From Bryopsis sp. KO-2023 (Eukaryota > Chlorophyta > Ulvophyceae > Bryopsidales > Bryopsidaceae): 64,000 nucleotides of DNA. Positions 21,442 to 35,229 of the stretch are shown in pieces (the stretch's first letter is position 1; each line of letters starts with the position of its first letter). A program made the position numbers and the translations under genes. The DNA is taken from positions 2,298,001 through 2,362,000 of the forward strand of contig BSYQ01000007.1 in assembly GCA_030272585.1 (NCBI GenBank), written 5' to 3'. The notes under the pieces are model-generated. The model did no database searches. It saw only the letters and a list, made by a program, of their open reading frames with translations, and had not been told where the DNA came from.

Positions 21442-21917
21442 ATCCACAGTAGGGATGTCCCTGAGAACTTTTCATGCGAAAATCCACATTTGGGTGGACC
21501 TTCACAAAATCCACATTTGGGTAATCGTTCGCATTTTTCCAAATAGGATGATAGGTCGCTGGTGAAATTTTGAAAAATTTGTGAGACTAATGATTTGAAG
21601 AAACCGTGGAGACAACTCAATCAATCAATCAATATTACATGGAGACAATTGTGATGTTGCAGTACAACAAACGGGTGTTTTGATGCTGTTGATAGGTTGG
21701 ATATTTTTTGAATAGTGCTTGGGGGGTGAGATACATTTCTTTTTTGTAAGGCTGGTGGTTCATGATGTCATTGTGATGAATTTTACAAGCCAGAAAAATT
21801 CACAAACAATTCACAGTTGGGGAAAAGTTGCACGTTTTTTCTCACATTTGGGCACCGAAAAGTCCCCATCAAAAGTCCACATTCAGGTGAACCGGAATTC
21901 ACACACAGGGACATCTC

Positions 21918-21942
21918 CAGGCATGCTCAAAAGTGGCATTTG
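21918..21942 (+). repeat. left terminal inverted repeat of hAT element
   Basis: Begins CAGGCATGCTCAAAAG. It pairs with 25066-25090 on the opposite strand with mismatches only at positions 9 and 10. Confidence 0.92.
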
Positions 21943-22085
21943 GCCCAAAATTGCCACCCGATGCCACTATTAAGAGCAGTGGTGGTGCCACTATTAAAGG
22001 CCTGTCGTACAGTTGCGTCTGTGCGGCTTTTGGGCGGAATGGTGTCACGTAACGCTGGGAGCCCGTGGGCTGCGGCTGGTGGCTC

Positions 22086-22325
22086 GCGGATATGTGCGGC
22101 TTGCATTGTCGAAGTCGAAAAATTGGCGGAGAGAAGTCGTTCTGGGGCGTTTGTGGGACGATGGTAGGATATTTTTAGCTAGCGTCGTCGAAGTCGAATT
22201 GTGGCTGAGGGAAGTCGTTCTGTCGAGTTTGTGGTAGGGCGCTGGTAGATATGTGTGGCTAGCATAGTCGAAGTCGGGTAGTGGCTGAGGAAGGCCGTGC
22301 TGTGGAGTTTGTGGTGGGGTGCTAG
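22086..22325 (+). repeat. three 80-bp tandem repeats in the transposase leader
   Basis: Three diverged copies, recognised by TCGAAGTCG at 22109, 22188 and 22268, each followed by a GGCGGAG/GGCTGAG step and a GTTTGTGG step. They lie between the left inverted repeat and the transposase ATG. They could be promoter or transposase-binding repeats, or simply duplicated leader. Confidence 0.75.
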
Positions 22326-22403
22326 TAGAAAAGCTGGGGATTGTAACATTGTCTTTACCGCCACTCTTCTTCTCGTTTTTCTTCTGCTCGCTCATATAAA
22401 AAA

Positions 22404-24738
22404 ATGGCTCCAAAGAAGCGGACAACTCCGTTTCAAAAAGGCCACGAAGTGCAGTATGGTCTCAGAGTGACCGATGTCGACCCTGCCACAGAGTCGACAC
22501 GCAGCGTCGTTTGTCGATTCTGCGAGACCTTTGGGAGAGAGGAGCAGCCTGGAAGAAAGAGGAAGGCCACAAAGAACTGTCACTACTTCACGAACCCGTT
22601 TCGGCCGGAGACCTACCGCAAGCACAACGAGTCACAGCACCCGAGCAAGTGGGCAGAGTACTTGCAACTTTCGGATAGCGAAAAGAGCAGCTTCTTTGAC
22701 GGAGTGGTGCCGATCAGGAACACTCTCCTTAGCCACTTCACGCTGGAAACGACGACGAGGGTGTTTGATATCAACGGCGGGATCGTCGAGACTATTATTG
22801 CTGAAATGTTTTTTGATGTCGACGACGAGTGCGACGACGACGACGACGACGATTCTTGCACAGATGGTCGTCGTCGACCCCTCCCAACACACGCAGAAGT
22901 TAAGAAACGAGCTTTAAGTGTGTTTAGTCCAGTGGAAGAGAATGGAAGGGTTGTTAAATACAAAGCGACGATAAAAAACGGTTCGTTGTTCGACCTGGTA
23001 GTCGAGTTTGCCAGTCTTGGCTCGTCCTTTCGTTGTATCAGTCGTCTCGCGGAGTCGACAAAAAACCTTACGGGAATGGGTTGTTACGGTGGGTGTGGCC
23101 GCACTAAAGTAGCGTCGTTTCTTCGAGTAATGGCTGCTGCTAATTTACAAATGCTTGGAGGGATTTTGAGTGAGTGTTGGACGTTTTCATTAGCGTTGGA
23201 TGGTGCTACACATCAAAGCACTTCATATATCGATATCAGAGTTCGTTTTTTTTTTTACGGGGACCTTCATAATTTCCACGTTTTGGCGTTGCCCTTGAAT
23301 CAGAGACACACTGGGGAGACGATGTTTGTACTCATAGAAAAAACGCTTGACGTGATTAGACCCGGATGGAAGGAATCCCTGTTGAGCGTTGCAAGTGACG
23401 GCGCAAGAAACATGACAGGACGACACAATGGTCTTCTTACGTTCTTGGAGCGTGCTGCTGGACCTGGCTTCATCAGAGTGTGGTGTGGCGCGCACCAGCT
23501 TGATCTTGTAATGGCTGATATTTACGGGAAAACGCTGCACGCGGATTTCTTTTCCCTTTTGACGACCCTGATCGCTTACTTGAGGCGTCAGCAAAACCTT
23601 GTCGCTGACATGAAGACAACGTGCCCAAAGGTGGCCCTGACACGGTGGTTGTCTATGATCAAGGTCATGAAGTGGTTTAAAAAGCACAGAATCGCTATCC
23701 AGGCGTACTTGAACGAGAAACGCCCAGCGTGCCGTCCCTCTTCAGGTTTGCCTTGTTTTTGACGTGAATTGCATTGAACGCACTTGTTATTTTTTGTTTG
23801 ACTTCACTTTGTTGCACGCAACTGGCTGATGAAAATCTTTTTGTGTGACTGCACTATGTTGCGTGCAACTAGGCTGGTGGGTGCTGATGATGGCCGTGCA
23901 CGATTTTGCACTTGAAGCTTCACTGGTTTTTCAGCGCATCCAAGGAATGACGACACTGGTGTCTCAACAAGTGACCGAACTGTCGAATCTATCTCAAACA
24001 TACTCCCGGCTTGTAGCTGCGAAAGGACCGTTGCTTGAGGCTGAGATCCAAGCGATGGCAGTGGAATCTAGCCACTCTGGTGGTCTCCTTGTGGTTGGCT
24101 CGTTTGCTGTGCCGATTGCAAAAGTGGAGCAATTCATTCGCGGCCTTGGGACTTTCGTATCAACCCAACTCGACGAATTGCCTGTTGAGAACGGCGCGAG
24201 GCATACCATTATCCAACTTGTTGGTAGCATGTTCGTTTCAGCCGCGGACCGGCTCACGTCGATCACAGTCGAGCGCAATGCTTGCAATGAGCCAGCCAAT
24301 CCCATGGACCAGCTACCACCTGTGATGCCCCACCAGCTTGTGAAGTGCAGCCGCGCCGACTTTTGTGCCAATGTTCGGAAGCATATTCTTCGATTGCAAG
24401 CGAAATTCACAGCACAACAGGTTGAGGAGATCGAAGAAGAGCACGGAGAGCTTCTTCGAGCCTACCATAGTGAGGAGACTTTGCAGGTGGTGCTCAACGC
24501 CTGCAATCACACCACCTCGTTCAAAGCAGGTTGGGGTTTTCTTGGGTCGCGATTTCCAGCTCTCCATGGGTTCGCAGGAGGCTTGGCCACGGTTTTTCCG
24601 GGTACTTCAACCGTAGAGGCCGACTTTTCTAGACTCAGGCGCGAGAAGGATATTTTTAGGCAGAACCTCTCTGATTTTGGGCTTGAATGTGTTCTCCACG
24701 CCCAACAGCACAAGGAGCTACTGAAACTATCTCAGTAG
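22404..24738 (+). CDS. hAT-family transposase
   Basis: Exons 22404-23745 and 23873-24738 (127-nt GT-AG intron, phase 1); 735 aa. It cuts and pastes the surrounding element. The N-terminus has a BED-type zinc-finger pattern: Cys-x2-Cys (CRFC) about residues 37-40 and a His-x4-His (HNESQH) about 72-77. An acidic run of eight Asp lies near residue 148. The RNase-H-like core shows SLALDGAT and VASDGARNMTGRHNG, which carry catalytic-type Asp residues, and CGAHQLDLV. The C-terminus has a hAT dimerisation motif: a Glu-Ala-Asp-Phe-Ser core, then SRLRREKDIFRQNLSDF. Length and order agree with complete hAT transposases. TATAAA sits at 22395-22400 directly before the ATG, too close to serve as a promoter for this start. 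Confidence 0.92.
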
Positions 24739-25065
24739 AAGTTCGTTGGGTTTTTTGTTCTTGTTTGCTTCGGAGATAAAGGGGACGAACACGATTCGTG
24801 TTCGTGTTACACGAACTCTGTAAGTTTTCGTTCTATTTGCAAAATGGTGTGAGCGACAATCCATCTTTGCGGTCTCCAAAGACCCGCTTAACTGTTGTAA
24901 CAAGGCCTTCGAGTTTTGTGATGGAAGAATAGGAGTGTGGTTGGATGACTCTGCCACTTGACGCAAAGCAGACGGTTCTAAAATGCAATTTTTGTTTGGT
25001 GCCACTTTGATGCCACTTTTAAGATTGTGCGGGCGCCACGATTAGCTTAATCTCCGTAAAAGTGG

Positions 25066-25090
25066 CAAATGCCACTTTTGTACATGCCTG
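25066..25090 (-). repeat. right terminal inverted repeat of hAT element
   Basis: Read on the minus strand it begins CAGGCATGTACAAAAG and matches the left end at 23 of 25 positions. It is followed directly by the target duplication at 25091-25098. Confidence 0.92.
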
Positions 25091-25355
25091 GACATCTCTA
25101 ATCCACAGCAAGAGTTCGATTTTTGCTCCAGAAAATGCCATTGAATAATTGCTGTCAAAGGGTTGCAATTACTGTCGTACAGAACGGGGAAGCGGCCACA
25201 GAAACCAATCGAACCGAACAGCAACTACTTTTTGGAAGGCGAGAACTGTCGAAGACCTCCGAAGAGTGCATTGACGTGGATTCAGTGTTTCCAGCGGGCG
25301 TCTGGGGTTTTGCGGAAAGGAATTGGGTCGTTTCTTGTTCAGATTTCCTGTTGCT

Positions 25356-33600: not shown

Positions 33601-34551
33601 TTACATGGTGATCGAAAAGATCGATTGTACGACAATAGCAGAGTTGTACATAGCATGGCCTAAGGTGGCAACAGCCAGATTGCCCCCCGACAGGACGTAC
33701 CCTCCCCCATAAGCACAGCCAGCCACAAAGAAACCAACGCTCAATTTTGGGTTGCAATGTGCAGCAGCAAAAACTGCGGATGTGATTGCAACTGCAGCTG
33801 GAGGCTTGAACCACTTGAGCAACGACGGCAAGAGGAACCCCCTGTAGATCAACTCCTCCAAGATCGGCGCCAGTAAAACCGCCAGCACGGATGCACCCAG
33901 AGTGGTGGAAATATCGTTGGTTTCCAAAAGCTCTTGCCCTATTGGTTTCTCAGCGCTGCCCCCAAATACATCGGATAGAAATGCCAGAAAAAGTGCGCCG
34001 CCGAAAGCGGCGAGGAAAGTGCAGCCCCCCTGGGCAGCCGCTTTTGGAGTGATTTCATATTTCAACCACTGCGGGGACAAAGGCCATTCTTTCGTTCCAA
34101 CCCAAAGCAAAACGCCAACCCCAAACAACTGAACGACCTCCATGAAATCCGCAGCCCAAGCGATTCCTGCACCGGACAACTCATCGACTGACGTCCCCAT
34201 CAGCCGCGCCACCAATGGCACTCCCCCTTGGCTCAAAGGAATCGTCAAACACACTATTTGCACCATCAATTTCCACACTGTCCACGTGTCCCAAGGAGGG
34301 CTATCGAACTCAACAGCGCTCAACTCAATTCCACCGCTAGAGGCTGCGCTTTCTCCCGTCGCCTGCGTCGTTGGGTCGTCAAAGCCATTCCGATCAGATC
34401 CCCGCGGATCTATCGAACGGACAGCACCCCTTGGCAACGTACGCGGGGAAAAACGCTGATCATATGGGTGGAGAGATAGGCTCGCTGGCGAACGTGGTTT
34501 TGAGAAACACCAACCTCGCACCACGCTCCCACAGGAGCAAAACCTCTCCAT
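33601..34551 (-). CDS. CPBP-family (CAAX/Abi) intramembrane metalloprotease
   Basis: Single exon, 316 aa from the ATG at 34551 (an in-frame GTG lies at 34581, with a stop just above it). Motifs of the family are all present: Glu-Glu-x3-Arg in EELIYRGF (about 232-239), Phe-x3-His in FAAAH (His about 265) and His-x3-Asn in HAMYN (about 299). These residues hold the catalytic zinc in membrane proteases that cleave prenylated or other membrane substrates. About seven hydrophobic segments run from residue 95 to the end. The first 70 residues are Arg/Ser/Pro-rich and read like a plastid or mitochondrial transit peptide; in plants and algae many members are in chloroplast membranes. Divergent from the exonuclease gene. 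Confidence 0.88.
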   Translation of the reverse strand: MERFCSCGSVVRGWCFSKPRSPASLSLHPYDQRFSPRTLPRGAVRSIDPRGSDRNGFDDPTTQATGESAASSGGIELSAVEFDSPPWDTWTVWKLMVQIVCLTIPLSQGGVPLVARLMGTSVDELSGAGIAWAADFMEVVQLFGVGVLLWVGTKEWPLSPQWLKYEITPKAAAQGGCTFLAAFGGALFLAFLSDVFGGSAEKPIGQELLETNDISTTLGASVLAVLLAPILEELIYRGFLLPSLLKWFKPPAAVAITSAVFAAAHCNPKLSVGFFVAGCAYGGGYVLSGGNLAVATLGHAMYNSAIVVQSIFSITM

Positions 34552-35229
34552 TCGTTGTCCGCCAGTGCCAGCAACTGACACCGCCCGTCAGCTTATGTCA
34601 GCACGGACACGATTTTAGATACACCGATCCTGTTGGCGGTGAGAAATCCAAGGGCAGAAAAAAAATCATAAATATCGTCAAAATCGAATGCACAAGAGCA
34701 CTGCTGACATGCATTCCGTTGCCCGCACCTTGTGCAGGGGGCGAACCTCGCTGATCCAACGCCTCAGGTACTTTGCAAGAAAAGTCCAGGCCATTGCCAC
34801 ATTTTAGGATTCAACCACACACATATCTGGGAGTCTTTTCTAGCCATTATTGTTCACCTGGGTTGGTTAATCATAAGGAAACACACAAAGAACAGCCAAT
34901 GCAGGTTATATACACACAAACACATATATATATATTGCCATAGCAACCCCGGAATGGACTCATTGGGTGTGTTATCGACAGAGGAGTGTTCAGTTAAAGT
35001 GCACCGTTCCCCTTTGAAAGAAAAGAACCCAGTATTTTGCTTATTAAAGCTGTCCAGCAGGTGGAAAAATAGGACTGTTGTTTTTTTTGTCTGTATCGAG
35101 CATTCTCATTTGACGGATGGGCGACATGGAGGTTTCGGTCCATGCGATACGTTTGAAAACAAAAGAAACACTCAATTATTGGTGGTTGGAGCTTGCCCCA
35201 TTTTTTTCATGTGAATTGTGTGCGCACAG
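34552..35229. other. divergent promoter region
   Basis: Lies between the minus-strand protease and the plus-strand exonuclease, and should contain both promoters plus the undetected first exon of the exonuclease. Short TA repeat at 34925-34936. Confidence 0.4.

Follow-up and report, generated by a model that had tools for sequence, protein, structure and literature searches.

Architecture of the locus

The window analysed here, a stretch of 64,000 nucleotides from the genome of the ulvophycean alga Bryopsis sp. KO-2023, contains two transposable elements on the forward strand, one of which is lodged within the other. The outer one is a non-autonomous element (MITE), of which the first 468 of 470 bp, starting with TAGGGATGTCCCTG, occupy positions 21450-21917, and the final 2 bp (TA) lie at 25099-25100 (468 + 2 = 470 bp), where they complete the terminus CATCTCTA with which the other full copies of the family end. 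It is flanked by exact copies of the 8-bp target duplication ATCCACAG at 21442-21449 and 25101-25108. The inner element spans 3173 bp (21918-25090) and is bounded by CAGGCATG...CATGCCTG, the same ends being found on shorter elements elsewhere. Its own target duplication, GACATCTC, is likewise exact, with the left copy at 21910-21917, within the right terminal repeat of the outer element, and the right copy at 25091-25098. The right terminal repeat of the outer element is split into CAGGGACATCTC and TA, placing the insertion 2 bp from the outer right end. The two outer ends, TAGGGATGTCCCTG and TAGAGATGTCCCTG, match at 13 of 14 positions, and those of the inner element show 23 matches among their first 25 positions.

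The composite unit (L009) measures 3651 bp and retains TAGGGATG...CATCTCTA as its ends and ATCCACAG on its flanks, because the duplicated 8 bp rebuild part of the outer end. With the boundaries fixed, an exact 8-bp duplication would arise by chance with a probability of about 1.5e-5. An earlier note on this DNA had proposed the same arrangement, and its coordinates, both exact 8-bp duplications and the 470-bp reconstruction proved correct to the base. When the one available assembly was searched for an empty or MITE-only copy, the joined flanks matched their own two places only, and are single-copy in it. Scans of the window for tRNAs and, at the gathering threshold, against Rfam returned no matches. 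Further along the window, an open reading frame at 33604-34581 clearly matches Rce1-like CAAX proteases (E 1.2e-17).

Copies and target duplications of the outer family

A search of the whole genome (91 Mb in 28 contigs) with the outer element, as the earlier note had suggested, recovered relatives in at least 39 matching pieces. Places within one mismatch of TAGGGATGTCCCTG number 63, as against 22 for the reversed control, and those resembling the right end number 24, as against 0 in the control. The ends could be set for 22 copies besides that in the window, the remaining pieces being fragments or single ends, which were excluded. Exact 8-bp duplications flank 8 of these 22 (L002-L008 and L070), so the expectation that further copies would be bounded by such duplications is borne out. 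In three others (L062, L071 and L072, the last judged by eye) 7 of the 8 letters match. A recognisable duplication is absent in the remaining 11: three copies with damaged ends (L059-L061), three on contig 5 with a different tail past position 377 (L063, L065, L066), three with identical flanks that were counted as one event (L067-L069), and L064 and L074. The left flanks of the contig 5 trio differ from each other, and the two whose full sequence was inspected (L063 and L066) run into a common different tail.

The seven full-length copies elsewhere in the genome (L002-L008) are 98-99% identical to the window MITE, and the eight full copies including that of the window carry on average 2.9 substitutions each relative to their majority sequence; this low divergence suggests a recent spread of the family. 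Among the 12 duplications of the outer family (9 exact, 3 near), T is found at position 2 in 9 and A at position 7 in 6, and none has a central AT. The length of 470 bp, the lack of a gene, the ends matching at 13 of 14 positions and the exact 8-bp duplication together identify the outer element as a MITE. There is no long open reading frame inside it, the frames there being short or extending into the flank. No autonomous partner with its ends was found among the places sharing its end. By eye, none of the 63 TAGGGATGTCCCTG-like places lies within 6 kb of the 150 PF05699 places listed, for which 150 of 185 candidates were scored; transposases like the inner one would escape this comparison. 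Similarly, visual inspection of the open reading frame lists recognised no transposase at L078 and L095, two of the 24 right-end-like places, which carry divergent relatives of the outer end. The hAT label that the earlier note gave to the outer element is upheld by its 8-bp duplication and terminal repeats, but is less secure given that it has no recognised gene and that no transposase partner was found.

Other outer copies have been disrupted as well, with L070, L071 and L064 carrying inserts at internal positions. The copy L070 (C6:6398641-6406762) is broken by an insert of 7.2 kb whose 300-bp terminal repeats are direct and 99% alike; the insert begins with TG, ends with CA and has GTTCA on either side (by eye), and is LTR-retrotransposon-like. 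In L071 (C3:3110432-3113928) the insert is 2.6 kb long and contains internal repeats as well as a proline-rich frame. At about 6.10-6.23 Mb of contig 4, a set of three outer copies, 87% identical and with the same flanks, is spaced at about 24-25 kb, and so is a set of three inner-family ends that likewise share their flanks; a segment has apparently been triplicated here. Contig 19 (C19:62337) also has the inner-family end and flank of this trio.

The inner family and its predicted transposase

The inner family is represented genome-wide by at least 41 matching pieces (20 candidates were scored), and the search for its ends, also suggested in the earlier note, found 31 as against 0 in the reversed control. 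Including the window copy there are eight two-ended members, seven of which have exact 8-bp duplications, whereas the eighth (L087) matches at 6 of 8 letters. The seven other two-ended copies measure 864, 864, 978, 978, 978, 1299 and 1353 bp, and no full-length member other than that of the window was found. Subterminal TGCCAC repeats are a further feature of this element, with 7 of 8 lying within 150 bp of an end.

The inner element contains a transposase-like gene on the forward strand. Exon 1 (22404-23745) is an open frame of 447 codons plus one base, ending at a predicted splice site; it is followed by a predicted 127-bp intron (23746-23872, GT...AG), across whose junction an intron-less relative (L099) aligns ungapped, and by exon 2 (23873-24738), an open frame that comprises the C-terminal hAT-like region and the stop. 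The frame is intact if the 127-bp intron is spliced, and the predicted product has 735 amino acids. The relative L099 has an intact open reading frame of 746 codons and is 40% identical over positions 4-733 of the inner protein; another on contig 17 is closer in sequence but decayed, with in-frame stops. The window element is an autonomous, possibly working copy.

Neither the inner protein, at E values up to 10, nor L099 matches any hAT domain in Pfam; such a match is the usual mark of the hAT superfamily, though not a strict requirement. A profile comparison (hhalign) linked the inner protein over its presumed catalytic region to the open reading frame of L100 (E 6.2e-7, probability 92%), which in turn matches the hAT dimerisation domain (Dimer_Tnp_hAT) at 21.1 bits and DUF659 at 16.2 bits, both below the respective cut-offs of 21.4 and 34.7. 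The linking region holds the motifs SDGARNMTG and CGAHQLDL, which are part of a series, ALDGAT, SDGARNMTG, CGAHQLDL, TRWLSM and VEADFS, whose order is largely kept in L099 and fits hAT. The residues D266, D332 and E696 are conserved in L099, and, given the role of their counterparts in other hAT transposases, may form a DDE catalytic triad. Searches against solved structures gave no credible relative, the only hits being two at chance level in one search (best E 0.56), and single-sequence structure models of the two exons had mean pLDDT values of 34.5 and 47.1, too low for use. At the level of the element, the 8-bp duplications agree with hAT membership, as do the short inverted repeats at the termini and the subterminal repeats. 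Taking together the L100 profile link, the motifs, the duplications and the end structure, a hAT-like inner element is the best reading, though not a proven one. The inner family would then be a mildly interesting, divergent hAT-like lineage beyond Pfam's hAT models. Of the "two hAT families" claimed in the earlier note, the distinctness of the families stands, but the hAT label of the inner protein, with no Pfam hAT match, is less secure than was claimed.

Target preference of the inner family

For the analysis of target sites, 24 inner-family ends were reduced to 18 independent insertions by merging the two ends of the C16:46-48 copy (the second likewise AT), counting four ends with one common flank (no AT) as one, and dropping two 3-mismatch ends (C3:253 and C9), both without a central AT. 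Ten of the 18 are readable on one side only, their duplication being assumed. The dinucleotide AT occupies the central positions 4-5 of the 8 bp in 14 of the 18, against a frequency of 0.064 expected from window composition (p 4e-14); the count is 14 of 20 with the two dropped ends included, and 7 of 8 in the two-ended copies alone. This distinguishes the inner family from the outer one (14/18 versus 0/12, Fisher p 2e-5). The alternative step TA is seen at positions 4-5 in none of the 18 inner insertions, and a separate count found it in none of 16 inner and none of 11 outer sites. Of the Ac-group target nTnnnnAn, T at position 2 (6/16) and A at position 7 (8/16) are weakly represented in the inner family.

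In 9 of the 18 insertions there is a second AT 7 bp upstream of the central one (p 5e-7, uncorrected for the 29 offsets examined). Given symmetry, this predicts an AT 7 bp downstream, and four of the eight two-ended copies have one (p 0.0009). At the window site of the inner element the downstream AT is present (taATcc) and the upstream one absent. It is conceivable, though we would put it at clearly worse than even odds, that the inner family is a divergent hAT lineage missed by Pfam, with a transposase that recognises a symmetric, periodic target of the form AT-N5-AT-N5-AT, unlike the rules of Ac or Buster. In the portions of the literature covered by our search, we recognised no report of hAT insertion sites that combine a central AT with AT steps 7 bp to either side.

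History of the locus and relationship to known systems

Outer copies that lack the inner element occur elsewhere, and members of the inner family occupy other sites, which supports the nesting, the order of the jumps and the existence of two distinct families, in agreement with the earlier note. The most plausible history, with a probability of roughly 0.93, is that the 470-bp element inserted first and was followed by the 3173-bp element, which carries a divergent hAT-like transposase, within its right terminal repeat. In the first step, the gene-less element would have inserted by cut-and-paste at ATCCACAG, duplicating the 8 bp, probably after mobilisation in trans by another hAT-like transposase. 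Later, the larger element with its own transposase gene would have inserted at GACATCTC, duplicating those 8 bp in turn; its transposase is presumably produced and active, and may use the hAT-type DDE mechanism. The window pair is a genuine, well-preserved nested insertion of an ordinary and common class.

Other explanations bear on different parts of this history. The possibility that the outer element is a duplicated genomic segment rather than a mobile element draws on the copies that lie in common segments, such as L067-L069 with the same flanks, but eight other copies and that of the window have differing flanks and exact, different 8-bp duplications, which refutes segmental duplication for those nine and leaves this explanation with almost no credibility. 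An inner element that targets transposon terminal repeats, making the nesting directed rather than accidental, might be suspected from an insertion only 2 bp from the end of such a repeat. However, 2 of the 42 AT steps of the outer element lie in its terminal repeats, so that such an event is expected about once in 20 times if all steps are equal; outer-family terminal-repeat sequence, the only kind looked for (by eye, in 30-bp flanks), is found at none of the 17 other inner sites, and the inserts in L070, L071 and L064 are internal. Directed nesting is accordingly very improbable, and the landing site is explained by chance together with the central-AT preference.

Superfamilies other than hAT, such as P and KDZ/Zisupton, also make 8-bp duplications, and the inner element could belong to one of these, as its lack of both a Pfam hAT match and a credible PDB relative might indicate. 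Against this stand the profile link to the L100 protein, with its sub-cut-off hAT dimerisation and DUF659 matches, and the motif order, which fits hAT; we regard a non-hAT origin as unlikely.

As far as the cited portions of the respective papers go, several hAT systems resemble this locus. The ends of maize Ac/Ds (Ac group) are C/TAGGGATGAAA, and the outer element, compared on end motif only, has TAGGGATG in common with them (PMC3260210). Ac/Ds elements also make 8-bp duplications and may be nested, as with Ds-l4 in Ds-l3-15, such Ds-in-Ds nesting being called rarer than LTR nesting; like the inner family, they combine a full-length element with shorter derivatives and have repeated subterminal hexamers, here TGCCAC (PMC3260210). 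The inner element differs from them in its CAGGCATG ends, its AT-centred target and its transposase beyond Pfam's hAT models. Tol2 is comparable to the inner family in its 8-bp duplications and symmetric target with a central AT, TNA(C/G)TTATAA(G/C)TNA (PMC4818426), unlike which the inner family has AT 7 bp to either side and weak T2/A7. The Hermes rule is nTnnnnAn (PMC10368747). Mar MITEs and Buster, like the outer family here, include short gene-less derivatives, mostly with 8-bp duplications, but their consensus nnnTAnnn (PMC3517528) is not seen in either family. The Tip group likewise makes 8-bp duplications, and according to PMC3942097 its target preference was not studied in that work. 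For understanding site choice by hAT transposases, the target pattern seen in the inner family would be of help. The locus allows two transposon families to be dated relative to each other; the class of event being already known, its specialist interest lies in the divergent inner transposase and the periodic AT target.

The genome as a whole contains at least 150 places with a hAT dimerisation domain, many of them in open frames of 774-839 amino acids with identical scores, which suggests a recent amplification of several hAT families.
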